Below are positions 5,825-23,679 of a stretch of 25,711 bases of DNA, piece after piece (positions within the stretch are counted from its first letter, which is position 1; each line of letters starts with the position of its first letter). Origin of the DNA: a virus. Below the pieces are notes generated by a model. The model was not told the origin of the DNA. It ran no database searches and saw only the letters and a list, made by a program, of their open reading frames with translations. Location of the stretch: positions 1-25,711 of IMG/VR virus record IMGVR_UViG_3300011116_000950. One strand, written 5' to 3'. Both the position numbers and the translations under genes were made by a program.

Positions 5825-8647
5825 TTGTCATATATTGATGCATTTTTAGATAAAAATACAGATCAAGTTAAAGTCGTTGAACGCATTAATGGTCAAAGAA
5901 TTTTTAATGAATATGCAGCCCAATATGTTTTTTATTATGATGACATAAAGGGAAAACATCGTTCAATATATAATACTCCACTAGGAAGGTTCAATACCAG
6001 AAGTCATAAACTTTTTCAAAAGGAAATTAAAACACATCGAGGAACGAAACTTTATGAAAGTGATATTAACCCAGTATTTCGATGTCTTGAAGAAAATTAC
6101 CAAGGAAAAAATGCGCCAGAACTACATATAGGATTTTTTGATATTGAGGTGGATTTCAATCCAAAAAGAGGATTTGCTCCACCTGAAGATCCTTTTAGTA
6201 GAGTTACAGCTATCAGCATATATCTGAATTGGTTGGATCAAGTAATAACATTAGCAATTCCACCCAGGGATCTATCTCTAGATCAAGCACGTTCATATGC
6301 AGATAAATTTGATAATTGTTTTATTTTTACTGATGAAATTGAATTATTAAAAACATTTCTTGATCTTATTGAAGATGTAGATATTCTTAGTGGTTGGAGT
6401 AGTGAAGGATTTGATATTCCATATCTTGTGAATAGAATTGCACAAGAAATGAACAAAGAAGAAGTATCAAGATTTTGTTTATGGAATCAAATGCCAAAAT
6501 CTAGAGAATATGAAAAATTTGGTCAGACACGAAAAACATATGATTTAATAGGTCGTGTTCATCTTGATTACCTCGAATTATATCGGAAATACACTTACCA
6601 TGAAATGCATAGCTATAGATTAGATGCTATTGGTGAATATGAAGTGGGTGAAAATAAAATTCCATATGAAGGAAGTTTAGATCAATTATATAACCAAGAT
6701 TTTGAAAAGTTCATAGCATATAATCGTCAAGATACAATGCTTTTAAAGAAAATAGATGACAAACTTAAATTTATTGACCTAAGCAGTGAATTGGCTCATG
6801 ACAATACTGTGCTATTACCAACTACACTAGGAGCAGTGGCAGTTACTGAACAAGCAATTATTAATCTAGCACACAAAAAGGGATTAATTGTTCCTGATAG
6901 AAAAGTAAGTAGTGAAGACCGACATGGTCACATTTGGCTAGCATATTATTCAGGAATCCCAATTTTTGAAAAGGATATTGAAACATTAGTTGGTCGAGGA
7001 GCAGAAACAGATCCAAGTGGTAGAGTATTTGTTACGAAACAAATATATTCGAAAGATAGAGAATTCTGGAGCCAACATATTCCCAATGTTGCGGCTGCTG
7101 GTGCCTATGTTGCAAATCCAAAAAGAGGTCTGCATGATTGGATAGGTGCTATTGACATTAACAGTCTATATCCAAGTGTTATTAGAGCCCTTAATATGAG
7201 TCCTGAGACAATAGTTGGACAATTGAGACCACATAATACTGATCAATATATTCGAGAACGAATGAAAAAGGAAAAAATTAGTTATTCTCAGGCATGGGAA
7301 GGATTGTTTGGAACCTTAGAATATTCTGCCGTGTTAAAACAAGATCAAAATATGGAAATCATCATAGATTGGGAAGATGGTCGTACCGAAATACATAACG
7401 GAGCACAAATATTCAAAATGATATTTGATAGTTATAAACCATGGACCTTGAGTGCTAATGGAACAATTTTTAATATAAGTCAATCAGGAATTGTTCCTGA
7501 ATTATTATCTACTTGGTTTGCAGAACGAATAGAAATGCAAGCCAAGAAAAAAAATGCAACTGATCCGAAAGAAATTGCATTCTGGGATAAGAGACAACAT
7601 ACTAAAAAGATCAATCTCAATAGTTTATATGGTGCAATTTTGAATGCTGGCTGTAGATTTAATGACATGCGAATTGGCCAAAGTACAACATTAACAGGTC
7701 GTTGTATTACCAAACATATGGGAAGTAGAATTAATCAGACATTAACAAGTGAATATGATCACATTGGAAAAGGTATAATATATGGTGATACTGATTCTAT
7801 ATATTTTTCTGCATGGCCAATGGTCAAAGATCAAGTTTCAAAAGGTGAATTAGAATGGACCAAGGAAAATGTAATAACCTTTTATGATGCAATCGCAGAT
7901 GATGTTAATGCTAGTTTCTCAGAATTCATGCAACAAGCATTTCATTGTACCCCATTATTGGGTAACATAATTCGAGGTGGTCGAGAATTGGTCGCCACTA
8001 AAGGATTGTTTATTACTAAGAAGCGATATGCGGTTCTTTGTTATGATATTGATAATAAAAGAATGGATGTTGATGGTAAACCTGGTAAGGCAAAAATACT
8101 AGGATTGGATCTTAAGCGTGCAGATACACCTAAAATAATGCAAGAATTTTTAGAAAAAATTCTTATTCAAACATTGTGTGGTGCTTCTAGAGATGACATT
8201 GCCAAGGAAATATCAATATTTAGAGAACAATTTAAATCTAGACCTGGATGGGAAAAAGGAACACCAAAAAGAGTCAATAATCTAACTAAATTTACAAAGA
8301 TGTTTGAATCTGGAGAAAAAGGAACAATTCCAGGTCATGTCAGAGCTGCAATTAATTGGAATATACTTCGTAGATTAAACAATGATAATTATAGTCAACC
8401 TGTAATGGATGGCTTTAAAACTATCGTGTGTAAGTTAAAACCCAATCCAATAGGATATGATAGTATAGGATATCCTATTGACGAACTTAATCTTCCATCT
8501 TGGTTCAAAACATTACCTTTTGATCATCCATTAATGGAGGAAAAAATTATTGATAAAAAAGTTGACAATCTATTAGGAATTCTTGAATGGAATTTACGAT
8601 GTGCGGCGAAAGAAGTTCAATTGGATCAATTTTTTAAATTCAATTAA
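5825..8647 (+). CDS. 43: Family B DNA polymerase (T4 gp43-like) with 3'-5' exonuclease
   Basis: This is the replicative polymerase, 940 residues (T4 gp43 is 898). The exonuclease motifs are present: FDIEVDF (Asp106, Glu108), a SGWSSEGFDIPYLV ExoII-like segment (about 190-205) and YNRQD (ExoIII, about 299-303). Polymerase motifs follow in order: A, DINSLYPS (about 443-450); B, KKINLNSLYG (about 595-604); C, YGDTDS (about 653-658); and the KKRY element (about 735). The start is a TTG with an AGGAG site 9 bases upstream (5811-5815); no ATG is available before the exonuclease domain, so TTG is well supported. No intein or intron interrupts it. It is preceded by dCMP deaminase, and the clamp gene follows one gene later. 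Confidence 0.97.
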   Translation: MSYIDAFLDKNTDQVKVVERINGQRIFNEYAAQYVFYYDDIKGKHRSIYNTPLGRFNTRSHKLFQKEIKTHRGTKLYESDINPVFRCLEENYQGKNAPELHIGFFDIEVDFNPKRGFAPPEDPFSRVTAISIYLNWLDQVITLAIPPRDLSLDQARSYADKFDNCFIFTDEIELLKTFLDLIEDVDILSGWSSEGFDIPYLVNRIAQEMNKEEVSRFCLWNQMPKSREYEKFGQTRKTYDLIGRVHLDYLELYRKYTYHEMHSYRLDAIGEYEVGENKIPYEGSLDQLYNQDFEKFIAYNRQDTMLLKKIDDKLKFIDLSSELAHDNTVLLPTTLGAVAVTEQAIINLAHKKGLIVPDRKVSSEDRHGHIWLAYYSGIPIFEKDIETLVGRGAETDPSGRVFVTKQIYSKDREFWSQHIPNVAAAGAYVANPKRGLHDWIGAIDINSLYPSVIRALNMSPETIVGQLRPHNTDQYIRERMKKEKISYSQAWEGLFGTLEYSAVLKQDQNMEIIIDWEDGRTEIHNGAQIFKMIFDSYKPWTLSANGTIFNISQSGIVPELLSTWFAERIEMQAKKKNATDPKEIAFWDKRQHTKKINLNSLYGAILNAGCRFNDMRIGQSTTLTGRCITKHMGSRINQTLTSEYDHIGKGIIYGDTDSIYFSAWPMVKDQVSKGELEWTKENVITFYDAIADDVNASFSEFMQQAFHCTPLLGNIIRGGRELVATKGLFITKKRYAVLCYDIDNKRMDVDGKPGKAKILGLDLKRADTPKIMQEFLEKILIQTLCGASRDDIAKEISIFREQFKSRPGWEKGTPKRVNNLTKFTKMFESGEKGTIPGHVRAAINWNILRRLNNDNYSQPVMDGFKTIVCKLKPNPIGYDSIGYPIDELNLPSWFKTLPFDHPLMEEKIIDKKVDNLLGILEWNLRCAAKEVQLDQFFKFN

Positions 8648-9588: not shown

Positions 9589-10329
9589 ATGAAAGATTAT
9601 TTACAAGATATATTGAAACATACTCATAATTTGGGTTTGTTTGAATTTATCAAAATTTCAGGAACCACTGAATCAACTAAAATTGATGGTTTAAGTGAAG
9701 ATAAAAATGCAATTTTGATGGCTACCACGCATACGCCTGTTGTTGAATTTGAAGGTATCTTTGGCATGCCTAATTTAGGCAAACTGGATATGTTGGTCAA
9801 ATGCAAAGAATATCAAGAAAATGCAGATATTCATTTGCAACGAGAATCACGCAATGGAGTTGATGTTCCAGTAAGTATTCATTTTATCAATGAAGCAAAA
9901 GATTTCAAAAATGAATATCGTTTAATGAATCATTCTGTGATTGAAGAAAAACTTAAAGCCATTAGTTTTAATGCTCCAAAATGGAACATAGAATTTAGTC
10001 CATCAATATCTGGCATTCAAAGAATGAATTTCCAAAGTAGTTTATTGAGTGAAGAAACAAATTTCACTTTAGAAATAGATAAGGGAAATCTAATCTGTAA
10101 ATTGGGCGACGCTGCAAATCATGCAGGACAATTTATCTTTGCTTCCAATGTTGCAGGAAAATTAGAATCTTCCATAGCATGGCCAATTAAGTATTTTTTA
10201 CCAATATTGAAACTCAATGATAATAGTAACGGTTTTAAAATTAAAATTAGTTCTGCTGGATTAATGGAATTAAGTGTTGATAGTGGATTAGCCGATTATA
10301 GTTATTATATTTTATCAGCGGCTAGATAA
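9589..10329 (+). CDS. 45: DNA polymerase sliding clamp (T4 gp45-like)
   Basis: The 246-residue protein has the size of T4 gp45 (228) and similar local patterns: an EFEGIFGMPNLGKLDMLV segment (about 51-68) matching the gp45 stretch after the first beta sheet, an interdomain region near 125-150, and a C terminus ending DYSYYILSAA, similar to the gp45 end. Clamps encircle DNA and tether the polymerase; T4 gp45 also activates late transcription. Composition is beta-rich without cysteine-rich motifs. It follows the polymerase region and overlaps dpdA as TAATG, so the clamp and the DNA modification enzyme are translationally coupled. The assignment rests on pattern resemblance plus context. Confidence 0.75.
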   Translation: MKDYLQDILKHTHNLGLFEFIKISGTTESTKIDGLSEDKNAILMATTHTPVVEFEGIFGMPNLGKLDMLVKCKEYQENADIHLQRESRNGVDVPVSIHFINEAKDFKNEYRLMNHSVIEEKLKAISFNAPKWNIEFSPSISGIQRMNFQSSLLSEETNFTLEIDKGNLICKLGDAANHAGQFIFASNVAGKLESSIAWPIKYFLPILKLNDNSNGFKIKISSAGLMELSVDSGLADYSYYILSAAR

Positions 10330-11843
10330 TGACTGAAGATCTAAGTAAAAAATTTGATGAACAAGGCTATGCTATATTTTTGCCGGCCATTTCAACATTT
10401 TACAATAATTATATTGCTAGACAGCGAGTAGGGCCATATGTAGAACAATCTAGATTTCCAAAAAGTTTCAATGGAGACATGGAAGCATTAAATTTTCTAG
10501 ATCCTATTAAAAGTAAATTTCATTACAAATACGGATTATATTCTGCAGGTCATGCTCAATTAAATATGGCAAGAACTAATGTTGAAGATGCTATGATTCA
10601 ACAGAGAGATCGAAAGAATACCGTAATTCTAGGTGATAGTGGTGGTTTCCAAATTGGTAAAGGCATTTTGAAATTTGATTGGAAGAAGTTTAAGACTCCA
10701 TCAACTGATAAAGTAATCTTAAATATTCTTGATTGGCTAGAAGAAACTGCCGATTGGAGTATGATTTTAGATGTTCCGGCCTGGGCTTCTAATCCATCGA
10801 ATAGTCCACGAACTGGATTGAAAAGTTTTCAAGATTGCTTAGATGCAACAGTTTATAATAATAATCTTTTTATCAAAAATCGAAAAGGTAAAACAAAATT
10901 TCTAAATGTTCTACAGGGAGATGATTGGGAAAAAGCAACGGCATGGTATGATGCAGTTAAATCAATGCCTTTTGAAGGCTGGGCAATGGGCAGTAAAAAT
11001 GCTAGTGATATGTATATCGCTTTGAAACGCATTATTATTTTACGAGATGAAAAATTATTAGACGAACGTAATTGGATGCATTTCTTAGGAACAGCACAAT
11101 TAGATTGGAGTGTCTATTTAACGGCCATTCAACGACAATTAAGAAAAACTGTAAATCCCAATATCAATTTAAGTTTTGATTGTGCAAGTCCTTTTATCGC
11201 AACGGCTAATGGTAGGATTTATACCGACACTGTTTTTAGTAAAAAGAAATTAACCATAAGAATGGATTTTGCTCCAGATAATAAATTATTGAAAAATAGT
11301 CAAATTCCTTTTCCTTGGGAAAGCGCAATTACAAAAGATATGACAATGGGAGATGTTTGTTATTATGGACCAACAGACATGAATAAAATTGGAAAAATTG
11401 GTAAGACTAGTTGGGATAGTTTTTCTTATGCATTGATGATGGGCCATAATGTTTATACTCATATTAAATCAGTTGAGAAGGCAAATCAACTTGCTGACAT
11501 TGAATATGTTACACATAAACCAGAATGGAAGCATTGGAGGAAACTAAAGGATAGTGATCGAAGTGATGACTATAGTGATTGGATACCTAGAAATTTATTA
11601 TATTTTAATGGGTTTGTTAAAGATTTATTCGAATCTGAGACTCCTATGGATATGCTAGATGAAGCCAGAGCATTTCTTGATAGTTGTGCCAATACTCGAT
11701 GGAGGAAAAGCAGTCATTTTGATAAATTCTTTGATACTGGTGAAACATCGGTAATCAATGATCCAGCAGAACTAGAACATAATGAAGATGCAATAGCTAA
11801 ATTGGAAGAATTGGAAAATTCAATAAAGGCAAAAAATGTCTAA
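10329..11843 (+). CDS. dpdA: DpdA-like DNA guanine transglycosylase (TGT family)
   Basis: This 504-residue protein has the tRNA-guanine transglycosylase active-site order: DSGGFQ (103-108, first catalytic Asp region), LDVP with Asp148, an LQGD loop (195-198, equivalent to VQGG), WAMGS (218-222), HFLG (251-254) and FDCASP with Asp284 at the position of the TGT nucleophile. It lacks the CxCxxC zinc cluster of bacterial Tgt and is longer, as in phage DpdA proteins that exchange guanine in DNA for a 7-deazaguanine. The window also contains folE, queE and a QueD-like gene, supporting a DNA role over a tRNA role. The ATG overlaps the clamp stop codon; the next gene overlaps its end by 8 bases. The exact base inserted cannot be told. 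Confidence 0.85.
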   Translation: MTEDLSKKFDEQGYAIFLPAISTFYNNYIARQRVGPYVEQSRFPKSFNGDMEALNFLDPIKSKFHYKYGLYSAGHAQLNMARTNVEDAMIQQRDRKNTVILGDSGGFQIGKGILKFDWKKFKTPSTDKVILNILDWLEETADWSMILDVPAWASNPSNSPRTGLKSFQDCLDATVYNNNLFIKNRKGKTKFLNVLQGDDWEKATAWYDAVKSMPFEGWAMGSKNASDMYIALKRIIILRDEKLLDERNWMHFLGTAQLDWSVYLTAIQRQLRKTVNPNINLSFDCASPFIATANGRIYTDTVFSKKKLTIRMDFAPDNKLLKNSQIPFPWESAITKDMTMGDVCYYGPTDMNKIGKIGKTSWDSFSYALMMGHNVYTHIKSVEKANQLADIEYVTHKPEWKHWRKLKDSDRSDDYSDWIPRNLLYFNGFVKDLFESETPMDMLDEARAFLDSCANTRWRKSSHFDKFFDTGETSVINDPAELEHNEDAIAKLEELENSIKAKNV

Positions 11844-12714
11844 AATTCTTATCGTTGGATTGGGTATTGGAAAATTATATTATGATATTCTTTCTAAAGA
11901 TCATGATATTATCACTGTAGATATTGATCCAAATAAAAATGCGGATTATCAAACCGTTGATTTATTAGATCAACGGTTTGATCTATCAATAATCTGTACT
12001 CCAAATTTTACCCATAAGGAATTGGCTTATAAATTAGCATTAATTAGTGACATGATTTTAATTGAAAAACCAGGATTAGAAACATCATCTGAATGGAAAA
12101 CATTGTTGGATACATTTCGAGATGTCAGGTTTATGATGTCCAAAAATAATCAATATCGTGATGAAATTGAACAAATGAAAATTTTATCAGCAACAGCACA
12201 AAAAATCGAAATTAATTGGAATAATTATGATAGGATACCATATCCTGGTAGTTGGTTCACGAATAAAAAATTGTCATGGGGTGGAGTTAGTCGAGATCTT
12301 ATACCACATCTTTTGAGCATATATATTAAATTATTCAAATATGATTTTCCATATGACCATGATCTTTTTAAAAAATGGTCATTATCTGATTTAAAGAACA
12401 CATCATATGGATCAATAAAAATAGATGGAATTTATGATGTTGATGATCATGCATATTTAAGTTTCAAACATAATGACAAAACCATATTTTTATCTGCAGA
12501 TTGGAAATCTAATGAATCTAATGACATTGCGATACATTTCTATAACGACCTAGGACATTTTGAAATCTCATTAGGATTGTGTCCTGAATATGCATATGAA
12601 AATATGATTAAAACCATGTTTCTAAATCAATATAATGATAATTTTTGGAACGAACAGAAACAAATTGATATATGGATACATGAAATTATCGAAAGATTAA
12701 TTTCATGGAAGTAA
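11836..12714 (+). CDS. Gfo/Idh/MocA-family NAD(P)-dependent oxidoreductase
   Basis: This 292-residue protein begins with a Rossmann motif (GLGIGK, residues 8-13), has an acidic end to strand 2 (VDID, 28-31), a CTPNFTH segment (54-60) and the family signature EKPG (77-80), followed by GGVSRDLIPHLLS (about 149-161), where the Asp and His match the active-site area of Gfo/Idh/MocA enzymes. These enzymes oxidise or reduce sugars, inositols and related polyols. It is slightly shorter than usual (330-360). It overlaps dpdA by 8 bases and the next dehydrogenase by 10 bases, so it is part of the same translation unit. A sugar or modified-base precursor is a reasonable but unproven substrate. Confidence 0.8.
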   Translation: MSKILIVGLGIGKLYYDILSKDHDIITVDIDPNKNADYQTVDLLDQRFDLSIICTPNFTHKELAYKLALISDMILIEKPGLETSSEWKTLLDTFRDVRFMMSKNNQYRDEIEQMKILSATAQKIEINWNNYDRIPYPGSWFTNKKLSWGGVSRDLIPHLLSIYIKLFKYDFPYDHDLFKKWSLSDLKNTSYGSIKIDGIYDVDDHAYLSFKHNDKTIFLSADWKSNESNDIAIHFYNDLGHFEISLGLCPEYAYENMIKTMFLNQYNDNFWNEQKQIDIWIHEIIERLISWK

Positions 12715-13616
12715 GAATATTACGAACTGACGGTACTGGTTCATTCATAGAAGATATTTGGAAAAAGCCAGATCATAATGATGATCAAATAGTTGTAAAA
12801 ACTATTATGACTGGTGTTTGTAGAAGTGATATTGATATGATGAATGGATCGTTCAAGAAATTACCAACACATATGATGGGACATGAAGGATTAGGCATAG
12901 TTCATAACATTGGTAAAAATATATTTGATGTTAAAATTGGTGATTATGTGGCGACACGTGGAGAACCAGCCTATGCAGATTTCTATAATTCAGGAAAAAA
13001 ACAATATATCAAAATAGACTATCCTGATCCAAAATTTATTATAGAACCAGTTGCATGTGGTATGAACATTTATCAACGTGTAAAATTAAATTCTAGATTC
13101 AATAAAAATACAATACGAGTGTTGGTATTGGGCAGTGGATTCATGTCATATATCATTAATTCTATATTTTTAAATGAATCTAAATATATAGGATATCAAG
13201 TATTTAATATTGGAAATCATAATAAAGATTTATTTCCCAACAGAATAGAAAACACAGATGGAAAATATGACATCGTAATTGATATAACATCAGATCCCAA
13301 ATGGATTGATTTGCCAATATATGAAGAAAATGCTATAATAGTAATTGCCTGTGAAAAACATCCATCAATAAAAACAGATTTCAGTAATCTATTATGGAAT
13401 AATTCACAAATCATATTACCAAGTCCTAGAGATGATAGGTTTCATGAATCTATGATATTATCAAAATTATTAATAGATAAGAATGTATTTGATAAATTAG
13501 ATCATTTTTGGTCTAAAGGATATAAACGAAACACTGAATGGAAGAAAGCATTCAATGATGCTAAAAATAGACCACAAGGATATAATCGTGGATATATAGA
13601 TTGGAGAGAAATATAA
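12705..13616 (+). CDS. Zinc-dependent alcohol dehydrogenase-like (MDR) protein
   Basis: This 303-residue medium-chain dehydrogenase-like protein keeps the catalytic zinc site (GVCRSDID with Cys39; GHEGLG with His60-Glu61), GDYVA (79-83) and EPVACGMN at the start of the cofactor domain. A Rossmann-like VLVLGSGFMSYI follows near 140-152. It lacks the four-Cys structural zinc lobe and is about 40 residues shorter than standard MDR enzymes, with a reduced nucleotide-binding half. It probably oxidises an alcohol or reduces an aldehyde. It overlaps the Gfo/Idh/MocA gene by 10 bases, and the next ATG overlaps its stop codon. Two consecutive oxidoreductases after dpdA suggest a joint pathway; that is inference. 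Confidence 0.75.
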   Translation: MEVRILRTDGTGSFIEDIWKKPDHNDDQIVVKTIMTGVCRSDIDMMNGSFKKLPTHMMGHEGLGIVHNIGKNIFDVKIGDYVATRGEPAYADFYNSGKKQYIKIDYPDPKFIIEPVACGMNIYQRVKLNSRFNKNTIRVLVLGSGFMSYIINSIFLNESKYIGYQVFNIGNHNKDLFPNRIENTDGKYDIVIDITSDPKWIDLPIYEENAIIVIACEKHPSIKTDFSNLLWNNSQIILPSPRDDRFHESMILSKLLIDKNVFDKLDHFWSKGYKRNTEWKKAFNDAKNRPQGYNRGYIDWREI

Positions 13617-13984
13617 TGAGAAAATTCTTAGAAACTATTGCCGTTGATACATCAGGATTTGATCCATATCTGATTATCACAATGAAAGATGAATCTGGAT
13701 CAAATACGGTCCTATTAAAAACCAAAATGGAACCAGATAATTCAGTTAAATCTAAATATTCATTAACTGAGCAAAAAAGAATAGATAGGATAAATCAACT
13801 ATTAATGGAACGCGGATTCGCAACAATGACAGAACCAGAATCTGATTTCTTAATTGATCCTAATGGTCTACGTTGGAATAAAATTGATACAAATACCGAG
13901 GATCTACAACGATTGGCTGGTTTTACTGTTGAAAAGAAAATAACATATTATGATGATTTAAAGGAAGAAAAGATTAATGACTAA
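13616..13984 (+). CDS. Unknown 122-residue protein in the dpdA operon
   Basis: I place the start at ATG 13616, overlapping the previous stop codon as TAATG with GGAGAG (13603-13608) at proper spacing; an in-frame TTG at 13601 overlaps that ribosome binding site. The 122-residue product has no recognised domain. Its N-terminal part is beta-rich (FDPYLIITMKDE...TVLLKTKM); a helical segment follows (about 45-65), then FLIDPNGLRWNKIDT and a C-terminal charged tail. It overlaps the QueD-like gene by 8 bases. The location suggests a part in the same pathway or simply cotranscription. Confidence 0.65.
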   Translation: MRKFLETIAVDTSGFDPYLIITMKDESGSNTVLLKTKMEPDNSVKSKYSLTEQKRIDRINQLLMERGFATMTEPESDFLIDPNGLRWNKIDTNTEDLQRLAGFTVEKKITYYDDLKEEKIND

Positions 13985-14351
13985 TTACATATGGGTTAAA
14001 TTTCAAAAAGAAGGAATTCATTGTTATCCCGCGGCTGCAATTGATCCTAATCTAGCAACTGGTGATTGGGATGATGTTAGTTTTTTGGCTAATAAACATC
14101 GACATATTTTTCATTTTAAGGTATATATTTCAATAGAACATTCTGATCGAAACATTGAATTCATACAATTCAAACGTTGGCTAGAACGGTTGTATGATAA
14201 TAAAACATTACAACTTGATCATAAGAGTTGTGAGATGATTGCAGAAGAACTGTATATACAAATCAATAAAAAATATCCAAATCGAATTATTAAAATTGAT
14301 GTGAGTGAAGACAATGAAAATGGATGTTTAATGGAATTTGGAATAAATTAA
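13977..14351 (+). CDS. QueD/PTPS-like T-fold protein
   Basis: This 124-residue protein aligns by eye with 6-carboxytetrahydropterin synthase (QueD): His15 in GIHCYPAA (first zinc His), HRH (41-43, zinc pair, equivalent to LHGH), EFIQFKRWLE (61-70, equivalent to IDFAELK), LDH (80-82, Asp/His of the active site), SCEMIAEELY (84-93) and SEDNENG with Glu111 (substrate-binding Glu). QueD turns dihydroneopterin triphosphate into CPH4, the step between FolE and QueE, both encoded in this window. The catalytic Cys that precedes the HGH motif in QueD is absent (Ala-Asn-Lys instead), so activity may differ. The start ATG overlaps the preceding gene by 8 bases. Other T-fold or unrelated phage proteins remain possible. 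Confidence 0.5.
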   Translation: MTNYIWVKFQKEGIHCYPAAAIDPNLATGDWDDVSFLANKHRHIFHFKVYISIEHSDRNIEFIQFKRWLERLYDNKTLQLDHKSCEMIAEELYIQINKKYPNRIIKIDVSEDNENGCLMEFGIN

Positions 14352-14399
14352 CCCAAAATTATACTAGATTTATATCCAAAATATGCTAAATTAATAATT

Positions 14400-14501
14400 G
14401 GAAGACCACACGGTAGCTTAACTGGATAAAGCCGTTACAACGAGTTATCAGTTCGAATCTGATTCGTGGAAGAGGGTCGACACTTTTCAAAGGTCTTCCA
14501 C
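14400..14501 (+). ncRNA. tRNA-like element without anticodon arm; alternative stems
   Basis: A canonical D arm (TAGC at 14414-14417; stem GCTT 14416-14419 with AAGC 14429-14432) and a canonical T arm (stem ATCAG/CTGAT with loop TTCGAAT, 14447-14463) are joined by only 14 bases that cannot form an anticodon arm. CCAC (14406-14409) can pair with GTGG (14466-14469) as a short acceptor-like stem. An outer stem GGAAGACC (14400-14407) with GGTCTTCC (14492-14499) competes with GTGGAAGA (14466-14473) pairing TCTTCCAC (14494-14501). It may be a decayed tRNA, a tRNA mimic or a structured regulatory RNA. No complete tRNA can be drawn. Confidence 0.45.
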
Positions 14502-14512
14502 CCAATTTAATA

Positions 14513-14542
14513 TGTTGACTTTGTAGAGTTAACATATATACT
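14513..14542 (+). promoter_or_regulatory. Sigma70-like promoter with overlapping dyad
   Basis: TTGACT (14515-14520), a 16-base spacer and TATACT (14537-14542) give a strong promoter reading into the ORF at 14592. A near-perfect inverted repeat, TGTTGAC (14513-14519) with GTTAACA (14528-14534), covers the -35 box and spacer and could be an operator. Confidence 0.5.
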
Positions 14543-14591
14543 GATAAAGTTAGTGATGCGTTAACAACCCTTAAACAAGGAAACGAAGCAA

Positions 14592-14798
14592 GTGAAGAGT
14601 GTAGTGAATAAGGTATTCGATGATCTTGATGAATACCGAAATTATTGTCGATTCGCGTATTTGAATGGACAAGATGGATTTACGTTCAATGAACGGGATC
14701 TATATCGGACTGATAGTCCGTGGGGAGTGATGAAGGGCCTAGTAGAAGTCACTCGACCCAAGTATCGGACGAATAAGAACTTTAATCGAAGGCGATAA
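14592..14798 (+). CDS. Unknown small protein, 68 residues, GTG start
   Basis: A GTG at 14592, with AAGGA about 11 bases upstream, opens a 68-residue frame; a second in-frame GTG at 14604 is an alternative. The product is acidic at the N terminus (VFDDLDEYRNYCRFAYLNG), aromatic in the middle and very basic at the end (RPKYRTNKNFNRRR). Its codons are less AT-rich than those of its neighbours, similar to the genes after 24800. It lies about 50 bases behind a strong sigma70-like promoter, so it is probably an early host-directed protein. The family is not recognised. Confidence 0.6.
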   Translation: MKSVVNKVFDDLDEYRNYCRFAYLNGQDGFTFNERDLYRTDSPWGVMKGLVEVTRPKYRTNKNFNRRR

Positions 14799-15133
14799 TA
14801 TGAAGACCTAAATTAAACTTTTAGAACATTTAAGATTTTGTTTTGGTTGTAATTTTATTAGGTACAGAATAATGCTCAAGGAATCGTAGCTAAGCTAATT
14901 AAAATTAATTAGTATATTATTTGGTTTTTGGTTTAATGATCTTAATGTTTGTAGAAATTATCCTCAATGAGGTATATGTGTTATGGTTTAGGTAATTAAA
15001 TTTTTTTAATTGTGTAATTTAAATTTTGGAAATTTGTTAAACCGTTAGTTGAAACTTGAGGTATATGTGTTATGGTTTAGGTAATTAAATTTTAATAATT
15101 ACTCATATTTTTGATAGAACCGTTGTTTAGCGT
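14799..15133 (+). other. AT-rich noncoding block between the small ORF and the 16-bp hairpin
   Basis: No convincing gene is present. The block holds an AT-rich hairpin (CTAATTA, loop AAAT, TAATTAG at 14895-14912) and a tandem repeat described separately. Short frames across it lack ribosome binding sites. Confidence 0.6.
14968..15128 (+). repeat. Tandem direct repeat, two units of about 75-90 bases
   Basis: A 37-base identical segment occurs at 14968-15004 and 15057-15093 (core TATGTGTTATGGTTTAGG). In each unit it leads into an AT-rich hairpin beginning GTAATTA: in copy 2 GTAATTA (15081-15087) pairs with TAATTAC (15096-15102); in copy 1 a similar stem forms with different bases. Both units then contain AACCGTT (about 15039-15046 and 15118-15124). 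This could be a duplicated small RNA or regulatory element. A weak TTGAAA-16-TATGGT promoter match lies at the start of copy 2. Confidence 0.6.
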
Positions 15134-15168
15134 GAAAGAGCTTAGATCTTTAAGATCTAAGCTCTTTC
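15134..15168. terminator. 16-bp perfect hairpin
   Basis: GAAAGAGCTTAGATCT (15134-15149) and its exact complement (15153-15168) are separated by three bases. There is no U-tract after it, so it may stop transcription weakly, protect RNA ends or be an RNase III site. A sigma70-like promoter starts 23 bases downstream. Confidence 0.5.
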
Positions 15169-15191
15169 CAGTTCAAACTCATGACCATTTA

Positions 15192-15220
15192 TTGCATCTG
15201 TCTAATTAGATTAGTATAAT
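15192..15220 (+). promoter_or_regulatory. Strong sigma70-like promoter for the glycosyltransferase-folE-queE run
   Basis: TTGCAT (15192-15197), a 17-base spacer and consensus TATAAT (15215-15220) lie 18 bases before ATG 15239, with an AAAGGAAA ribosome binding site between (about 15226-15233). The match and spacing are good enough for host RNA polymerase, suggesting early expression of the downstream genes. Confidence 0.65.
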
Positions 15221-15238
15221 ATTTGAAAGGAAAAATAT

Positions 15239-16360
15239 ATGAAAATTTGGATAGTTGATTTGGAAAGTGTATCAACACGATATACATGTGAATGGAAAAA
15301 TCATATTCCATCATTAATTACAGAATTTTTAAAAAATAGTGGCGAATACAACAGTACGGTCGAAATAATTGATGGCCCATCTGATATTCCAAAATCTACG
15401 ACTCCTGGTGCATTTTTAAATTTTGGTGGAACCAATATCTATAAAAGTGCTCAAATGGAAAAATTAAGCCGAGCCTTCACTCTCGGTGAAATTAAAAATG
15501 GTGATCATATTCTGTTCACCGATGCCTGGCATCCTGGCGTGATTCAGGTCAAATATATGTCAGAACTATTAAATATTCGAATCAAATTACATGGCATTTG
15601 GCATGCAGGTAGTTATGATCCACAGGATTTCTTAGGACGTTTGATAGGAGATAAACCATGGGTACGACATGCTGAAAAAAGTTTTTACGAATGTTATGAT
15701 CATAATTATTATGCAACATATTTTCATAAAAAACTTTTTGCCGAAACCTTATTAGATTTCACTCCCTCGAAACAAACATTTGATTTAAAAATGATTCAAA
15801 CCGGATTACCATTTGAATATTTGAAACCATTGTTATCACCACTTGGAGAGTCTACCAAGAAAAAGAACTTGGTACTTTTCCCACATCGTATAGCTCCAGA
15901 AAAACAAATAGATATTTTCAATGATTTATCTAAAGAAATTCCTGAATTGGAATGGGTGGTATGTCAATCTAATGCCTTATCAAAAAATGAATATCATCAG
16001 ATGTTATCTGAAGCAAAAATTATATTCAGTGCCAATCTTCAGGAAACATTAGGAATTAGTATGATGGAAGGAATGTTAGTTGGAGCTCATCCTATGGTTC
16101 CAGATCGACTGAGCTATCATGAAATGTATCCAGATACATACAAATATCCATCGATTTGGACTGAAAACTTTGAATTGTATCAAAAACATAAAATCAAACT
16201 CATAACTCATATTAGAAATGTAATCCATCATTATAAATTTGATACCATAATTGATGACTCATCTGCAATATTTTCTAAATATTTTACTAGCAATAATCTA
16301 TTATTCAATCTAAAGAAACAAGTAATTCATATTGAAACTAACAAGGAAATCAATGAATAA
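15239..16360 (+). CDS. GT-B glycosyltransferase (GT4/GT1-like)
   Basis: This 373-residue protein has the GT-B layout: an N-terminal Rossmann-like half with GDHILFTDAWHPG (about 88-100) and HGIWHAGSYDP, then a C-terminal half starting LVLFPHRIAPEKQ (about 219-231) with the typical AKIIFSANLQETLGISMMEGMLVG segment containing the E-x7-E motif that binds the nucleotide sugar. It has no membrane segment, so it acts in the cytoplasm. Phage glycosyltransferases often decorate DNA bases or virion and host polysaccharides. It starts a run that includes folE and queE and overlaps folE by 8 bases, which makes a link to base modification plausible but unproven. Confidence 0.75.
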   Translation: MKIWIVDLESVSTRYTCEWKNHIPSLITEFLKNSGEYNSTVEIIDGPSDIPKSTTPGAFLNFGGTNIYKSAQMEKLSRAFTLGEIKNGDHILFTDAWHPGVIQVKYMSELLNIRIKLHGIWHAGSYDPQDFLGRLIGDKPWVRHAEKSFYECYDHNYYATYFHKKLFAETLLDFTPSKQTFDLKMIQTGLPFEYLKPLLSPLGESTKKKNLVLFPHRIAPEKQIDIFNDLSKEIPELEWVVCQSNALSKNEYHQMLSEAKIIFSANLQETLGISMMEGMLVGAHPMVPDRLSYHEMYPDTYKYPSIWTENFELYQKHKIKLITHIRNVIHHYKFDTIIDDSSAIFSKYFTSNNLLFNLKKQVIHIETNKEINE

Positions 16361-17048
16361 AATTTCAACAACAATTAAAGAACGGTTAAAATCAAAGGGA
16401 TTAAAATATTATGCTAACAGCAATATTAGCAATTGTATTAAAAAGGGAGAGTTAACAAAATTAGAAAAGGAAGTTACTGAAGCATTTTATGGTGTATTGG
16501 ATAGCTTGGTTATTGATCAAAAGAATGATCCAAATAGCAAGGATACCGCTAGGAGATTAGCTAAAATGTATATTCATGAAACTATGAAAGGACGTTACTA
16601 CCCTGGTCCAGAAATAACAAGTTTTCCTAATGATGATAAACATCGAGATCATCCATATGATCAATTATTAGTTGTCAGATCGGAAATTAAGAGCATGTGT
16701 AGCCATCATCATCAACCAGTAATTGGAGTTGCCTATATTGGAATTATACCTGGTGATACAGTATTAGGATTAAGCAAATATATTAGAATTGCTCAACATC
16801 ATTCACGACGAGGTACACTACAAGAAGAATTATGTGAAGATATCGCCGCATCCGTGGAGAATTTAACTAAGGCACGTGGGGTTGGAGTCTATATTGAAGC
16901 AGAACATGGTTGTTGCACAAATCGTGGTATAAATGCTCATTCAAGTTTGACTCAAACGACAGTTTTAAAGGGTTGTATGAAGGATGATCCTACATGTAAA
17001 ACTGAATTTATGGGCAATATCCATTTGCAAAAGCTGAGAAGTATTTGA
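16353..17048 (+). CDS. folE: GTP cyclohydrolase I
   Basis: The enzyme converts GTP to 7,8-dihydroneopterin triphosphate, the first step of both folate and 7-deazaguanine synthesis. I chose ATG 16353, preceded by AAGGA (16343-16347), over the in-frame TTG at 16332; the product is then 231 residues (E. coli FolE 222). The zinc and active-site residues are visible: MCSHHHQ (Cys116, His119 region), GLSKYIRI (139-146), the QEEL helix and EHGCCTNRG (Cys187/188). The gene overlaps the glycosyltransferase by 8 bases and the next gene as TGATG. In a phage with dpdA and queE this supports 7-deazaguanine supply. Confidence 0.94.
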   Translation: MNKISTTIKERLKSKGLKYYANSNISNCIKKGELTKLEKEVTEAFYGVLDSLVIDQKNDPNSKDTARRLAKMYIHETMKGRYYPGPEITSFPNDDKHRDHPYDQLLVVRSEIKSMCSHHHQPVIGVAYIGIIPGDTVLGLSKYIRIAQHHSRRGTLQEELCEDIAASVENLTKARGVGVYIEAEHGCCTNRGINAHSSLTQTTVLKGCMKDDPTCKTEFMGNIHLQKLRSI

Positions 17049-17371
17049 TGCCAGACTATTATATCACACAATCTACCTTGCCTATATCAAATATGTCTAT
17101 AGGACCAATCGTAAATACTCCAACTGGTATATATATTACTAGTTCGGGAGGTCCAGGAGGAATTGGAGTTATTGGAAGCAGTGGTGGTTCTGGTTGGCAT
17201 GATCCTGTTCAAGAACAATTACATAATTTAACCAACAGAATCCTTGAATTAGAATATGAAATTAGATTACATGACAAATATCCAGCATTAAAAGAAGCAT
17301 GGGAACAATACCAGGTGTTGAAAATATTATGTTTGTCTGATGAACAAACTGAAGGAAATTCAGGTGTCTAA
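17048..17371 (+). CDS. Unknown Gly-rich/coiled-coil protein, 107 residues
   Basis: ATG 17048 overlaps the folE stop codon (TGATG); an in-frame TTG just before is less likely. The first half is Gly/Ser/Ile-rich and low in complexity (about residues 28-54), and the second half is a helical segment (EQLHNLTNRILELEYEIRL) followed by KYPALKEAWEQYQVLKIL. I recall proteins with this ending in marine T4-like phages without known function. The layout suggests a flexible linker plus oligomerising helix, perhaps virion- or complex-associated. It overlaps the phosphoribosyltransferase gene by about 8 bases. Confidence 0.65.
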   Translation: MPDYYITQSTLPISNMSIGPIVNTPTGIYITSSGGPGGIGVIGSSGGSGWHDPVQEQLHNLTNRILELEYEIRLHDKYPALKEAWEQYQVLKILCLSDEQTEGNSGV

Positions 17372-17813
17372 TATCAAATATACTTGGATAGATTTTGATA
17401 AGGACTGTGATTCATTGGAAAAACAAATCAAAAAAAGTTTATTTGTTCCATCTATAATATGTGGATTAATATCTGGAGGATTACCACTTGCAACAAAATT
17501 AAGCAATACATTAAAAAAGCCGTTGAATACCACATTGATAGATATTAAACATGGTATCGCTCGTCGCGACTTTTGGATATTAGATGCATTGGATGATGAT
17601 AAAAATATTCTATTTGTGAACGATGTTTCTGTACACGGATCAACAATAAAATGGATACTTGGACAATATACTATTAAAAAAAGAAATAAAATTAGTCAGG
17701 TTAGATTTACTTCATTATTTCAATTGCCCAACGAAACTTATAAAAGTGATTTCTATGCTCGAGAAAAAAAGGAGAACGAATGTATTCTATTTCCATGGGA
17801 AGTAAAACAATGA
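17364..17813 (+). CDS. Phosphoribosyltransferase-like protein
   Basis: The likely start is GTG 17364, with AAGGA (17352-17356) 7 bases upstream; an ATG at 17340 in the same frame lies 5' of that site. The 149-residue product has a type I phosphoribosyltransferase core: IICGLISGG (31-39, PPi loop area) and ILFVNDVSVHGSTI (82-95), which matches the PRPP-binding motif (hydrophobic stretch, two acidic or Asn-Asp residues, then Gly-Ser-Thr). A flexible lid probably covers 62-72 (KHGIARRD). It would join a base to PRPP or run in reverse. It sits between folE and queE, so a role in salvage or in a modified nucleotide is attractive but unproven. Confidence 0.7.
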   Translation: MSNIKYTWIDFDKDCDSLEKQIKKSLFVPSIICGLISGGLPLATKLSNTLKKPLNTTLIDIKHGIARRDFWILDALDDDKNILFVNDVSVHGSTIKWILGQYTIKKRNKISQVRFTSLFQLPNETYKSDFYAREKKENECILFPWEVKQ

Positions 17814-18145
17814 ATTCAGATCATACTATAACAGTAATGAATACTATGAACGAACCAGTTTTAATTATTGAAAAAAATGGAAGAATAAAATTTAATGGGC
17901 CACCAGATGAAGCATCTAGAATATTTTTAAATTGTTTTCAAAATATTATTGATACCGAAATGTGTGCTACACGTAAATTGTATGACCTAATAAATGTTGA
18001 ATTATCTAAAATTCTAATGTTGATTGAAGGCATGTCAAAAGAACAAATAATTCAACATATCCAAAATCTGCGCGATCAATCTACCAAACATCTAACCTGG
18101 TATATTCTACAGGAGAATATTGACCAACCACTATCAACAATATAA
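17780..18145 (+). CDS. Unknown 121-residue protein
   Basis: ATG 17780 has a strong site AAAGGAGA just upstream and overlaps the phosphoribosyltransferase gene by 34 bases; an alternative ATG at 17810 overlaps that gene's stop codon as ATGA and would remove 10 residues. The protein has a small beta segment (PVLIIEKNGRIKFNG) followed by a helical C-terminal two-thirds (about 60-105). I recall short phage proteins with a similar 'NGRI-FNGPPDEA' segment, unnamed. There are no membrane segments or catalytic motifs. The next gene's ribosome binding site lies within its 3' end. Confidence 0.6.
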   Translation: MYSISMGSKTMNSDHTITVMNTMNEPVLIIEKNGRIKFNGPPDEASRIFLNCFQNIIDTEMCATRKLYDLINVELSKILMLIEGMSKEQIIQHIQNLRDQSTKHLTWYILQENIDQPLSTI

Positions 18146-18587
18146 TATAAATTATATGTTAGATTGTTTAATTTTAGGTGATTCAATTGCGATTGGAACT
18201 CATGTTCTATTTAAAGAATGTGAATTATATGCAAAAACTAGCATCACATCATCACAATGGAACCAACGATGGACCGTTCAGAAACTAGATGCTAAGACAG
18301 TAATCATAAGTTTAGGCACAAATGATCATAGGAATATTAAATCTAGAGATGAATTAATAACTATGAGATCACGTGTTAATGCAGAACGAGTATTTTGGAT
18401 TTTGCCAGCTGCAACTGCTCGAGGAAGTGGGCTATCTGTTGTTGAAATTCAAGAAATAATTAAAGATATTGCAGATACAAATGACGATTATATTATAGAA
18501 ATAAAAAGTTTAGATATAGATAAAACTCATCCAAGCTGGACTGGATATCATATGATTGCCGATGAAATTAAGGAAAAACTAAATTAA
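18120..18587 (+). CDS. SGNH/GDSL-family hydrolase
   Basis: The family hydrolyses esters or removes acyl groups using a Ser-His-Asp triad. In the 155 residues, block I is LILGDSIAIG (nucleophile Ser22), block III is ISLGTND (oxyanion Asn68) and block V is DKTHPSWTG (Asp134, His137). No signal peptide is present, so it is cytoplasmic or in the virion. The start is TTG 18120 with AGGAG (18111-18115) 4 bases upstream; ATG 18156 lacks a ribosome binding site and would sit just before block I. It overlaps the preceding gene by 26 bases and touches queE (TAATG). The substrate is unknown; a deacylase acting on a modified base or on host polysaccharide is possible. Confidence 0.75.
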   Translation: MTNHYQQYNINYMLDCLILGDSIAIGTHVLFKECELYAKTSITSSQWNQRWTVQKLDAKTVIISLGTNDHRNIKSRDELITMRSRVNAERVFWILPAATARGSGLSVVEIQEIIKDIADTNDDYIIEIKSLDIDKTHPSWTGYHMIADEIKEKLN

Positions 18588-19447
18588 TGTTCGGAAAAAA
18601 TGAAGTGGTCGGAAAAAAATATTTTGAAAATGCTGGTGACAAATTATTTGTTACTTCAGTATTCATGACACTCCAAGGAGAAGGCCCATATCGTGGAGAG
18701 CCAGCAGTATTCGTTAGATTAACGAAATGCAATTTATCTTGTTATTTCTGTGATACCTGGTTTGATTCAGGTGATTGGTTATCATATGATCAACTTATCG
18801 AAAAAATTCATAATGCAATTATGATTGCATATCCTAAAGGAATTCCAACTTGGTTAATTAACTCTAATGATAAAAAAATTCATTGTGGTCTAGTAATCAC
18901 TGGTGGTGAGCCAATGTTACAAAAGAATTTGACCACATTTTTATATAAGGCAGACGAAACATTCAATTGGGTTCAAATTGAATCTAATGGAACCATAATG
19001 CAGGATATTCCATCAACAACAACATTAGTTTGTAGTCCTAAATGTAGTGAAAAATTAGGAAAACCTATTAAATATTTACAACCAAATGAACAAGTTTTAC
19101 AAAGAGCATCATGTTTAAAATTCGTAATGTCTGCTGATCAAAATAGTCCATATAGTCAAATCCCACAATGGGCATTAGATTGGAAAGAATCAACTGGGAA
19201 ACAAATATTCATAAGTCCTATGAACATTTATAATAAAGAACCAGAACGAAATAAGACCATTAAATCTAATTCAAATGCAACTACATTAGAACAACGAAGT
19301 ATTGATGATGAAGTTATAAGCTTTTGGACTCCTGGATTACTTAATATGGATCAAAATCAAATAAATCATACATATGCTGCAAAATATTGTTTAGAAAATG
19401 GATGCATTTATAACTTACAAGTTCATCTATATGCTGGGCTAGCTTAA
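18587..19447 (+). CDS. queE: 7-carboxy-7-deazaguanine synthase (radical SAM)
   Basis: QueE converts 6-carboxytetrahydropterin to 7-carboxy-7-deazaguanine. The 286-residue protein shows the substrate loop QGEGPYRGEPAVFVRL (30-45), the radical-SAM cluster CNLSCYFC (Cys48, Cys52, Cys55; CxxxCxxC) followed by DTWFD as in QueE, and TGGEP (105-109) for SAM binding. A VQIESNG strand and a KFVMS segment follow. It is longer than E. coli QueE (223), mainly through inserts after 70 and near 215-235. ATG 18587 overlaps the SGNH stop codon. With folE and dpdA it provides strong evidence for 7-deazaguanine chemistry. Confidence 0.93.
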   Translation: MFGKNEVVGKKYFENAGDKLFVTSVFMTLQGEGPYRGEPAVFVRLTKCNLSCYFCDTWFDSGDWLSYDQLIEKIHNAIMIAYPKGIPTWLINSNDKKIHCGLVITGGEPMLQKNLTTFLYKADETFNWVQIESNGTIMQDIPSTTTLVCSPKCSEKLGKPIKYLQPNEQVLQRASCLKFVMSADQNSPYSQIPQWALDWKESTGKQIFISPMNIYNKEPERNKTIKSNSNATTLEQRSIDDEVISFWTPGLLNMDQNQINHTYAAKYCLENGCIYNLQVHLYAGLA

Positions 19448-19457
19448 AGGAAAAATT

Positions 19458-19844
19458 ATGGCTATTCGCAAAAAGAAAACATCAATTAAAAAACCTAGAA
19501 GAACAAAACAACAGCCAACAAAAGATGTTGTCAGAGAATCCATATTGAAACAAAAGGAATTGGCCACACAAAAAAATGAGCCGTGGGTTGGTGTTTTAGA
19601 AACACATTTTGATCCAGAAAATCCAAGTGATGGATATTTTGAATTAGATTGGAATTCGTCATTTATTGCAAAATTGATTAAGGCAGGATACACTGGTAAA
19701 AAGGAAGAAGATATTGTAAACCAATGGTTTGAAACCTTATGTAAGGGAGTTCTAGCTGAAACATATGAAGAAGTCACTCAAATGCAGGGCACAACATTTA
19801 TTCAACGACGAAAAACTGATGATGGGAAAACAGAAATTAGTTAA
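19458..19844 (+). CDS. Unknown conserved T4-like phage protein, 128 residues
   Basis: ATG 19458 follows an AAAGGAAA ribosome binding site (19446-19453), 10 bases after queE. The first 30 residues are highly basic (KKKTSIKKPRRTKQQ), and the rest is a compact acidic domain (PWVGVLETHFDPENPSDGYFELDWNSSFIAKLIKAGYTG). I recall similar proteins next to the RNase H gene in marine T4-like phages without assigned function. The basic tail suggests nucleic acid contact. It is followed 1 base later by the 5' nuclease gene. Confidence 0.7.
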   Translation: MAIRKKKTSIKKPRRTKQQPTKDVVRESILKQKELATQKNEPWVGVLETHFDPENPSDGYFELDWNSSFIAKLIKAGYTGKKEEDIVNQWFETLCKGVLAETYEEVTQMQGTTFIQRRKTDDGKTEIS

Positions 19845-19845
19845 T

Positions 19846-20829
19846 ATGACTCAAACTTATATAATATTAGATAGTTCAAATCTATTCTTTAGAGCACGTC
19901 ATTTAATGAAAGGTGCTGATTTAGACAGTAAGATTGGACTTGGTTTTCATATCATTTTTAATAGTATTAAAAAAGTCTGGCAAAATAATCATGGAACTCA
20001 TGTTGTTTTTGCTTTTGAAGGCAGAAGTTGGAGGAAGGATTATTATCTTCCATATAAAAGAAATAGAACAGAAATTAAGGCAAAATTTACTGAATCCCAG
20101 AAGGAAGAAGAGCAAATATTTTGGGAAGCATATGATACTTTTTGTACCTTTATTCAAGATAAAACAAATTGTACAACTCTGCAACATCCTTCTCTTGAAG
20201 CAGATGATTTAATGGCTGGTTGGGTACAATCTCATCCAAATGATAATCATATCATAGTATCAACTGACAGTGATATGCATCAACTTATAGCAAGTAATGT
20301 TAGTCAATATAATGGAGTCGAAGAATATTTAATTACACCAGATGGATATTTCAATGACCTTGGAAAAGCAATCAATGATAAAAAAACAGGATTACCGAAA
20401 AAAATACCAACTTCTGATTGGTTAATATTTGAAAAAAGCATAAGAGGTGATGCAACTGACAATATTTTTAGTGCATATCCTAGGGTTAGAAAAACAGTTT
20501 TAGAAGAAGCTTATTTGGATCGAGATAAAAAAGGATTTAAATGGAATAATCTAATGTTACAGAAATGGTTGGATCATGATGGTAAAGAACATCAGGTCAG
20601 AGAAGATTATGAACGAAATAAAATATTAATTGATTTGACATCACAACCAGATGACATTAAGATAAAAATTTATACATGTATTAAAGATGCAATTGATAGA
20701 AAAAAGGATATACCTCAGGTCGGATCACATTTATTGAAATTTTGTGGTAAATGGAATTTACAAAAAATGAGTGATCAAATCACATTTTATAGTCCATTCT
20801 TAACATCAAAATATGAACAGGTACAATAA
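19846..20829 (+). CDS. rnh: FEN-family 5' nuclease (T4 RNase H-like)
   Basis: The enzyme removes RNA primers and flaps from lagging-strand DNA. I use ATG 19846, 1 base after the preceding stop codon, since the protein then begins directly with the first catalytic strand (YIILDSSNLFFRA; Asp9); an upstream in-frame extension to 19765 overlaps the previous gene. The 327 residues (T4 RNase H is 305) carry AFEGRSWRKDYYLPYKRNR (56-74), EADD (118-121), TDSD (140-143) and RGDATDN (200-206), the acidic metal sites of the family. The arch region is short. The next gene starts at the stop codon (TAATG). Confidence 0.9.
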   Translation: MTQTYIILDSSNLFFRARHLMKGADLDSKIGLGFHIIFNSIKKVWQNNHGTHVVFAFEGRSWRKDYYLPYKRNRTEIKAKFTESQKEEEQIFWEAYDTFCTFIQDKTNCTTLQHPSLEADDLMAGWVQSHPNDNHIIVSTDSDMHQLIASNVSQYNGVEEYLITPDGYFNDLGKAINDKKTGLPKKIPTSDWLIFEKSIRGDATDNIFSAYPRVRKTVLEEAYLDRDKKGFKWNNLMLQKWLDHDGKEHQVREDYERNKILIDLTSQPDDIKIKIYTCIKDAIDRKKDIPQVGSHLLKFCGKWNLQKMSDQITFYSPFLTSKYEQVQ

Positions 20830-22878: not shown

Positions 22879-23679
22879 ATGCTACCAATGAATCATCTTG
22901 ACGATAATGCAAATCATATCTTTATTGATACTCCATATGGTCCAGGATATTGGGTACCTAAGGGAGATTATGTCGTCAATACCGTGAGCAGAGGTGCAAA
23001 GAATACGGGATATAATAATTTTCTTAAATTTATGAAACCTAAAGCTCGAACAGTATGTGATATTGGTGCAAACATAGGTGAAATAACCTGGGCGTTGTCA
23101 CAATTTTCACAACAGGTTCATGCATTTGAACCCACAGTAAATACCTTCCAATTACTAAAGAAAAATGTAGAACAAAATAATTTAAAAAATGTTTCTATAT
23201 ATGACAAGGGCGTTGGAGCAAAACATGAGATTGCCCATATAGCATTGAATGGAAATACCTGTGGCGCCAATGCTCGAATACAAGATGTCACAAAGACAAA
23301 ACACCAAACAGAGATAATGACCATTATTCCATTAGATTCATTAAATTTATCTGATGTTGATATTATTAAAATAGATGTTGAAGGATATGAATTGGATGTA
23401 TTGCAAGGTGCAGAACAAACCATATTAAAAGATAAACCAATAATTCAATTGGAAGTTTATGAACCAGCATTAAAACGAGCAAAACGTGATATTGCAGATG
23501 TATATTCATGGATGTTGGCCAGAGATTTTATTCCATATTATGTGAAATTTCGTAAAATTGTTCCAGAGTCCAATGAATATATAAAGGTACCAAAATGTAT
23601 AGAACGATTCTTTATACATAAATCAATTTTGGTACCAACTGAAGTGCCCAAAAATATTAGAATTATATCCAAAATATAG
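22879..23679 (+). CDS. FkbM-family SAM-dependent methyltransferase
   Basis: This 266-residue protein has the class I motif I DIGANIGE (61-68), HAFEP (81-85, acidic end of strand 2), QNNLKNVSIY and the FkbM signature DIIKIDVEGYELDVLQGAE (about 161-179). FkbM enzymes methylate hydroxyl groups, often on sugars. The start ATG 22879 has AGGA (22866-22869) 9 bases upstream. It stands alone between a 43-base gap and the promoter at 23690. With a glycosyltransferase in the same window, a methylated sugar on phage DNA, virion or host glycan is possible; the target is unknown. Confidence 0.85.
   Translation: MLPMNHLDDNANHIFIDTPYGPGYWVPKGDYVVNTVSRGAKNTGYNNFLKFMKPKARTVCDIGANIGEITWALSQFSQQVHAFEPTVNTFQLLKKNVEQNNLKNVSIYDKGVGAKHEIAHIALNGNTCGANARIQDVTKTKHQTEIMTIIPLDSLNLSDVDIIKIDVEGYELDVLQGAEQTILKDKPIIQLEVYEPALKRAKRDIADVYSWMLARDFIPYYVKFRKIVPESNEYIKVPKCIERFFIHKSILVPTEVPKNIRIISKI

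Follow-up and report, generated by a model that had tools for sequence, protein, structure and literature searches.

A QueC-less phage gene module for 7-deazaguanine DNA modification, with a candidate glycosyltransferase for the inserted base

Genes at the locus

The DNA considered here (the window) is a virus fragment of 25,711 bases from an incomplete genome (IMG/VR record IMGVR_UViG_3300011116_000950), and we treat its positions 9589 to 19447, where the module described below is encoded on the + strand. It holds, in order, dpdA for a putative divergent DNA guanine transglycosylase of the TGT superfamily (10329-11843), a gene for a QueD-fold (T-fold) protein of family phrog_17812, here called QD (13977-14351), a gene for a glycosyltransferase (GT) of GT-B/GT4 type whose donor domain is related to that of the tRNA-queuosine mannosyltransferase (QTMAN) family (15239-16360), folE for GTP cyclohydrolase I (16332-17048), and queE for the radical-SAM 7-carboxy-7-deazaguanine (CDG) synthase (18587-19447). 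A sequence-only reading of this DNA had named dpdA, folE, queE and a QueD-like gene, without queC, and family models, profiles and a structural model place all of them where it did. The genes it listed are real, but it overlooked GT, a phosphoribosyltransferase gene (17340-17813) and a pair of oxidoreductase genes (11836-13616), all of which are part of the module. We have little doubt that the module serves 7-deazaguanine DNA modification.

A divergent DpdA

The protein encoded at 10329-11843 gave no noteworthy match in Pfam, PHROG or NCBIfam and none among PDB sequences. As a single-sequence query, it also found nothing among viral contigs, but an alignment used as query did find relatives. 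The profile of these relatives aligns with bacterial TGT over 260 columns (hhalign E 1.2e-6, probability 91%), pairing the DSGGFQ motif, the region of the FDC nucleophile and the HN zinc-ligand region, while two unrelated control profiles in the TGT comparison gave E values of 0.14 and 0.52. These figures come from broad profiles on both sides; against the single Escherichia coli TGT, the probability was 21% and E was 0.001. The active-site series comprises D103 (in DSGGFQ), D148, D284 (nucleophile-type, in FDC), H251 and H373, and the three catalytic aspartates are invariant across 22 diverse relatives, which bears out the TGT/DpdA series that had been read from the sequence. In view of the profile match, the clean controls and the invariant key residues, we assign the protein on sequence grounds as a divergent DpdA, and it is predicted to insert a 7-deazaguanine into DNA. 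A second type of DpdA, carrying DSGGLQ, lies beside GT and QD in ACP17, X1 and BUCT-ZZ01.

CDG synthesis and the missing QueC

FolE and QueE are clear from family models and metal motifs. FolE (Pfam E 2.5e-39) has the zinc motifs CSHH and CCTNRG, and QueE (PHROG QueE E 3.8e-52, NCBIfam QueE E 2e-18) has the CX3CX2C cluster within a CNLSCYFC motif; both metal sites had been recognised in the sequence-only reading. The QueE of the window and that of phage PA5oct are only 20% alike. A gene for an SGNH/GDSL-type hydrolase (18120-18587, Pfam E 7.5e-6) lies immediately 5' of queE. True QueD, apart from QD, was detected by Pfam PTPS in 16 of 20 records tested, with two copies in PA5oct.

No match to QueC (PF06508) was found within the 25.7-kb window, in agreement with the earlier remark that no QueC-type ATPase is visible. 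As the record is a fragment, this says little alone; however, QueC is also absent from the complete relatives PA5oct, ACP17, Phosso, phiST and RHph_I1_18, which makes it unlikely that the gene simply lies beyond the fragment ends. The QueC on which a preQ0 pathway depends is thus missing from both the window and its complete relatives. Vibrio phage D479 and some contigs gave weak QueC matches, which span only part of the model. We think it very improbable that the genes serve to increase queuosine in the tRNA of the host instead of modifying DNA, a role that has been proposed for pathway-bearing phages without DpdA (PMC6884629): there is no QueC for preQ0, and the transglycosylase is far from the tRNA TGT and adjoins replication genes.

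A QueD-like protein proposed to act in place of QueC

By sequence, QD reaches PTPS only at E 0.038 (Pfam), and its profile gave only chance, bacterioferritin-type matches among PDB sequences. Its AlphaFold2 model (pLDDT 95) is a T-fold that resembles QueD structures most closely among PDB entries (TM about 0.7). An alignment with true phage QueD shows that QD keeps the three histidines, the base-anchoring Glu111 and a conserved S-C-E, and H15, H41, H43, E111 and S84-C85-E86 are invariant among its relatives. The QueD catalytic cysteine is missing, a leucine (Leu37) standing there in 46/46 relatives, and so is the segment that holds the catalytic Asp-His. Pfam PTPS does not detect QD in the 20 records where true QueD was tested. 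The missing catalytic residues and the separate true QueD in relatives rule out that QD is an ordinary QueD, as the sequence-only reading had counted it.

Among 12 isolate genomes with QD, 10 gave no QueC match, while the match in X1 fell below the cut-off and that in D479 was partial; conversely, the QueC-bearing isolate genomes tested had no QD (3/3). Because the two alternate across isolates, QD seems to substitute for QueC in the pathway after CDG, and we are fairly confident that it acts on CDG or its product. We note that QD forms the C-terminal part of longer proteins in Vibrio phage Bakedbeans (L313, 5212-6363) and Chryseobacterium phage MA9V-3 (L316, 5398-6279), the N-terminal part having no Pfam match. 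In two phages QD was suspected to be fused to MazG, but the fused portions contained no Pfam domain.

The glycosyltransferase

GT is 44% identical to the product of a gene adjoining dpdA in PA5oct. The model (pLDDT 93) has a GT-B fold, and many GT4 enzymes align with it at Z 20 to 26, including sucrose-phosphate synthase, BshA and MshA. QTMAN is not among the structural matches listed, which is uninformative either way, and the GT profile found only WlaC (E 0.24) among PDB sequences. The donor-phosphate residues R217 and K222 are invariant, as is E277, and position 269 is Glu or Asp in all 46 relatives; together with the E-x7-E spacing of E269 and E277, these residues are consistent with a functional retaining enzyme of GT4 type. 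In profile comparisons (hhalign), the GT family matched proteins with a QTMAN_N domain at E 1.5e-12, and eight single QTMAN proteins matched the GT profile at E 3e-11 to 5e-7, compared with 0.0075 to 0.66 for the controls (five E. coli GT4 enzymes and a second phage glycosyltransferase). Among the families compared, GT thus appears nearest to one that adds sugar to a 7-deazaguanine nucleoside.

The structural neighbours also include tetrahydrobiopterin glucosyltransferase, at Z about 21, and the products of FolE and QueD are pterins. GT might on this account act on a small molecule of the pathway (pterin or free base) rather than on DNA, the sugar being a carrier, export or protection group. 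We consider this improbable: many GT4 enzymes match the structure equally well or better, and alphaproteobacterial islands described below hold GT, DpdA and a Vut_1-type transporter with no pterin-pathway genes in view. From the kinship with the QTMAN family and the linkage to DpdA we infer that GT acts on the inserted base in DNA, which is, in our estimate, about an even proposition.

Linkage of GT to DpdA

A viral scan with GT as the only query gave 77 new loci, and even with flanks that are partly truncated, DpdA was near in 67/77, QD in 74/77 and FolE in 58/77. The corresponding scan of bacterial genomes found DpdA within about 5 kb of GT in 24 of 27 loci and is free of the bias from pooled queries. 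A census of related phages pooled the loci fetched with DpdA, QD and GT queries, its denominators being the loci with enough flank; DpdA lay at most 6 kb upstream of GT in 124/135 and QD at most 3 kb away in 129/135, fractions that the pooling partly inflates. In the same census, the phrog_12062 protein preceded GT by at most 8 kb in 120/123 loci, and downstream of GT were FolE (within 6 kb, 77/85), the phosphoribosyltransferase (61/85) and QueE (within 8 kb, 37/50). Hundreds of related phages retain GT next to the base-exchange genes, and GT is about as conserved as DpdA itself. With the second DpdA type in ACP17, X1 and BUCT-ZZ01 and the low likeness of the QueE proteins, it follows that GT and QD travel with DpdA while other parts of the module are swapped.

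An alternative, close to the sequence-only reading, leaves the DNA unglycosylated. FolE, QueE and DpdA without QueC would suffice for DNA that contains CDG or, after QD, plain 7-deazaguanine, with GT and the sugar genes modifying something else, for example the host surface. Some phages, such as phiST and RHph_I1_18, have QD with no GT match, and a 2023 study reportedly found both dCDG and plain dDG in phage DNA. This explanation nevertheless seems to us unlikely, though it is the most serious of the alternatives, because the linkage between GT and DpdA holds across unrelated phages as well as in bacterial islands with no other glycan genes in view, and because GT is nearest, among the families compared, to a 7-deazaguanine glycosyltransferase family.

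Neighbouring and accessory genes

The gene upstream of dpdA encodes a sliding-clamp-like phrog_12062 protein (9589-10329, PHROG E 1.2e-35), the usual upstream neighbour of dpdA; its relative in Phosso bears the annotation 'DNA polymerase III sliding clamp beta'. The module is surrounded by genes for a family B DNA polymerase (5825-8647), a 5'-3' exonuclease (19765-20829) and a dCMP-deaminase-type protein (5363-5812). The T4-like genes around the module, together with a thymidylate-synthase-family gene in 9/19 relatives, would be in keeping with a GT that glycosylates hydroxymethylcytosine or hydroxymethyluracil, as in T4. Enzymes of the thymidylate-synthase family are the usual source of hydroxymethyl handles. 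They are absent from the complete genomes of ACP17, X1 and BUCT-ZZ01, which keep GT, so that such an acceptor is disfavoured there; given the linkage to DpdA and QD as well, we regard this explanation as highly improbable.

Directly 3' of dpdA lie two optional accessory genes, for a Gfo/Idh/MocA-type NAD-binding oxidoreductase (11836-12714, Pfam E 9.9e-6, over the cut-off) and for a zinc alcohol-dehydrogenase-like (ADH-like) protein of the MDR type (12705-13616, Pfam ADH_N E 7.6e-12). The Gfo gene occurs in 23 of 104 loci and the ADH-like gene in 25, both together in 23. The pair and a downstream NAD-dependent epimerase almost exclude each other, both being present in 1 locus and one alone in 22 and 26 (Fisher p 0.006). 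Other loci have UDP-glucose-dehydrogenase-like, DegT-type aminotransferase or cytidylyltransferase genes, and at least one accessory gene is present in 74/104. Exchangeable sugar tailoring would explain this variation, although some of these genes may serve other glycans.

The phosphoribosyltransferase (17340-17813) is weakly of the xanthine/hypoxanthine-guanine type (PHROG E 1.1e-8, NCBIfam xanthine phosphoribosyltransferase E 7e-5), and that of BUCT-ZZ01 is annotated as xanthine/guanine type; it could well recycle the guanine freed by DpdA. A small protein encoded at 14592-14798 resembles, as read from its sequence, cluster c10, whose members lie directly 5' of GT in many relatives (median 230 bases upstream, 95 occurrences). 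Small genes also recur between GT and QueE in relatives (L083, L100, L189, L250 and others), among them those for a HIT-domain protein (c16), a 156-residue protein (c15) and a MazG-like protein (c27). Downstream of the module is a gene for an FkbM-type methyltransferase (22879-23679, Pfam E 4.5e-20), a type of enzyme by which sugars are often methylated.

Other phages and bacterial islands

In large bacterial contigs of Magnetospirillum (L302, 8359-12438; L303, 5375-9097), the genes for GT, QD, DpdA and true QueD are adjacent, with a CoiA-nuclease-domain protein upstream. Chromosomal islands of Alphaproteobacteria, in contigs of Shimia, Aurantimonas, Rhizobiales, Pseudooctadecabacter, Sulfitobacter and Devosia (L304-L309), combine DpdA with a GT close to that of the window. 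Most have a Vut_1/YhhQ-type transporter, a small tyrosine recombinase and a two-component system next to these genes, and a MASE1 histidine kinase is also among the neighbours; those of the Roseobacter group share an unassigned 585-residue protein. No genes for 7-deazaguanine synthesis, the pterin pathway or other glycans are in view around these islands, and the base may therefore be imported. Possibly they constitute an undescribed bacterial DNA-modification system. Xanthomonas phage PhiXhv-15 (L257, 8659-11893) encodes a distant homologue of GT whose neighbours are a PIG-L (GlcNAc deacetylase-type) protein and a Gat-QueC fusion, the fusion being annotated as fructose-6-phosphate aminotransferase; this locus may represent a second, QueC-based pathway to a glycosylated deazaguanine. 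Whatever the source of the base, DpdA with GT is the element common to these contexts.

Discussion

We put at about one in two the chance that the window holds a QueC-less phage module that exchanges guanine in DNA for a 7-deazaguanine and then probably decorates it with a sugar. From the genes, their folds and families, their intact active-site residues and their conserved linkage we infer the following chemistry. FolE and QueE would make CDG together with a true QueD, supplied by the host or by a gene in another part of the phage genome. QD would bind CDG through its conserved Glu and three-His metal site and alter the 7-carboxylate, most likely by decarboxylation, thereby replacing QueC. 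DpdA would swap guanine in phage DNA for the modified base, the phosphoribosyltransferase recycling the guanine released, and GT would move a sugar from a nucleotide-sugar onto the inserted base. Accessory enzymes, represented in the window by the Gfo/Idh/MocA and ADH-like pair, would modify the sugar or the point at which it is attached. The phage would be expected to gain resistance to restriction and other DNA-cutting defences. The sequence-only reading had offered CDG or, with queC elsewhere or from the host, preQ0 or a derivative. CDG in DNA is still a tenable outcome, but queC is not merely out of view, and the choice is too narrow: as QD seems to replace QueC and a QTMAN-related GT is conserved like DpdA, the final base is more likely processed and glycosylated.

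Several points weigh against glycosylation of the base. The match between GT and QTMAN is limited to the C-terminal donor domain; the nine records searched contained no QTMAN_N match up to E 10, so the N-terminal acceptor domain differs and GT is not QTMAN proper. The set of six GT4 controls is small, and the census carries the inflation from pooled queries noted above. If QD leaves plain 7-deazaguanine, that base would offer no obvious point for an O-linked sugar, and a pterin acceptor is possible, given the tetrahydrobiopterin glucosyltransferase neighbour of the modelled structure.

In its broadest form, our proposal is that aquatic tailed phages and alphaproteobacterial mobile islands commonly have glycosylated 7-deazaguanine as a base of their DNA, made by a QueC-free route through QD and a GT that shares ancestry with QTMAN, with swappable sugar-tailoring genes that yield chemical variants. 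We hold this tentatively, at slightly less than an even chance. If it is true, DpdA base exchange and T4-like DNA glycosylation are joined in one widespread module from which phages gain a sugar-coated guanine, and the orphan T-fold family phrog_17812 acquires a role. The DNA of the cultured phages PA5oct, Paride, ACP17 and BUCT-ZZ01 should then bear a sugar adduct on 7-deazaguanine. The chromosomal DpdA-GT islands of Alphaproteobacteria may be DNA-modification systems too.

Comparison with known systems

Phage 7-deazaguanine DNA, DpdA and a few phages that lack only QueC have been described (PMC6884629), and a deazaguanine system was noted in PA5oct in 2021 (PMC7824862). Neither glycosylated 7-deazaguanine in DNA nor the linkage of this GT to DpdA was found in the literature searched, which excluded the most relevant paper, of 2023. 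That study (Cui et al.) reportedly predicts a CDG decarboxylase, DpdL, in phages of this kind; QD, which occurs in QueC-less phages such as phiST and ACP17, has the distribution expected of DpdL and may be the same protein.

The module resembles the phage DpdA systems of 9g, CAjan and nt-1 (PMC6884629) in its folE and queE genes and its DpdA-type transglycosylase. It differs from them in that its complete relatives lack QueC and have QD in its place, in the linked QTMAN-related GT, and in a DpdA that the family libraries miss. QD shares with QueD (6-carboxytetrahydropterin synthase) the T-fold, the three histidines and the substrate Glu. It differs in having neither the catalytic Cys nor the Asp-His and in coexisting with a true QueD. 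GT and QTMAN (PF12038) have related donor domains, and both are associated with 7-deazaguanine nucleosides; however, GT has no QTMAN_N and is linked to DpdA and DNA replication genes rather than to tRNA. With T4-type DNA glucosylation, the proposed pathway has in common the idea of a sugar placed at the DNA level on a modified base, whereas here the base would be a guanine analogue introduced by base exchange, the enzyme is of GT4 type, and no hydroxymethylase is needed in several relatives.

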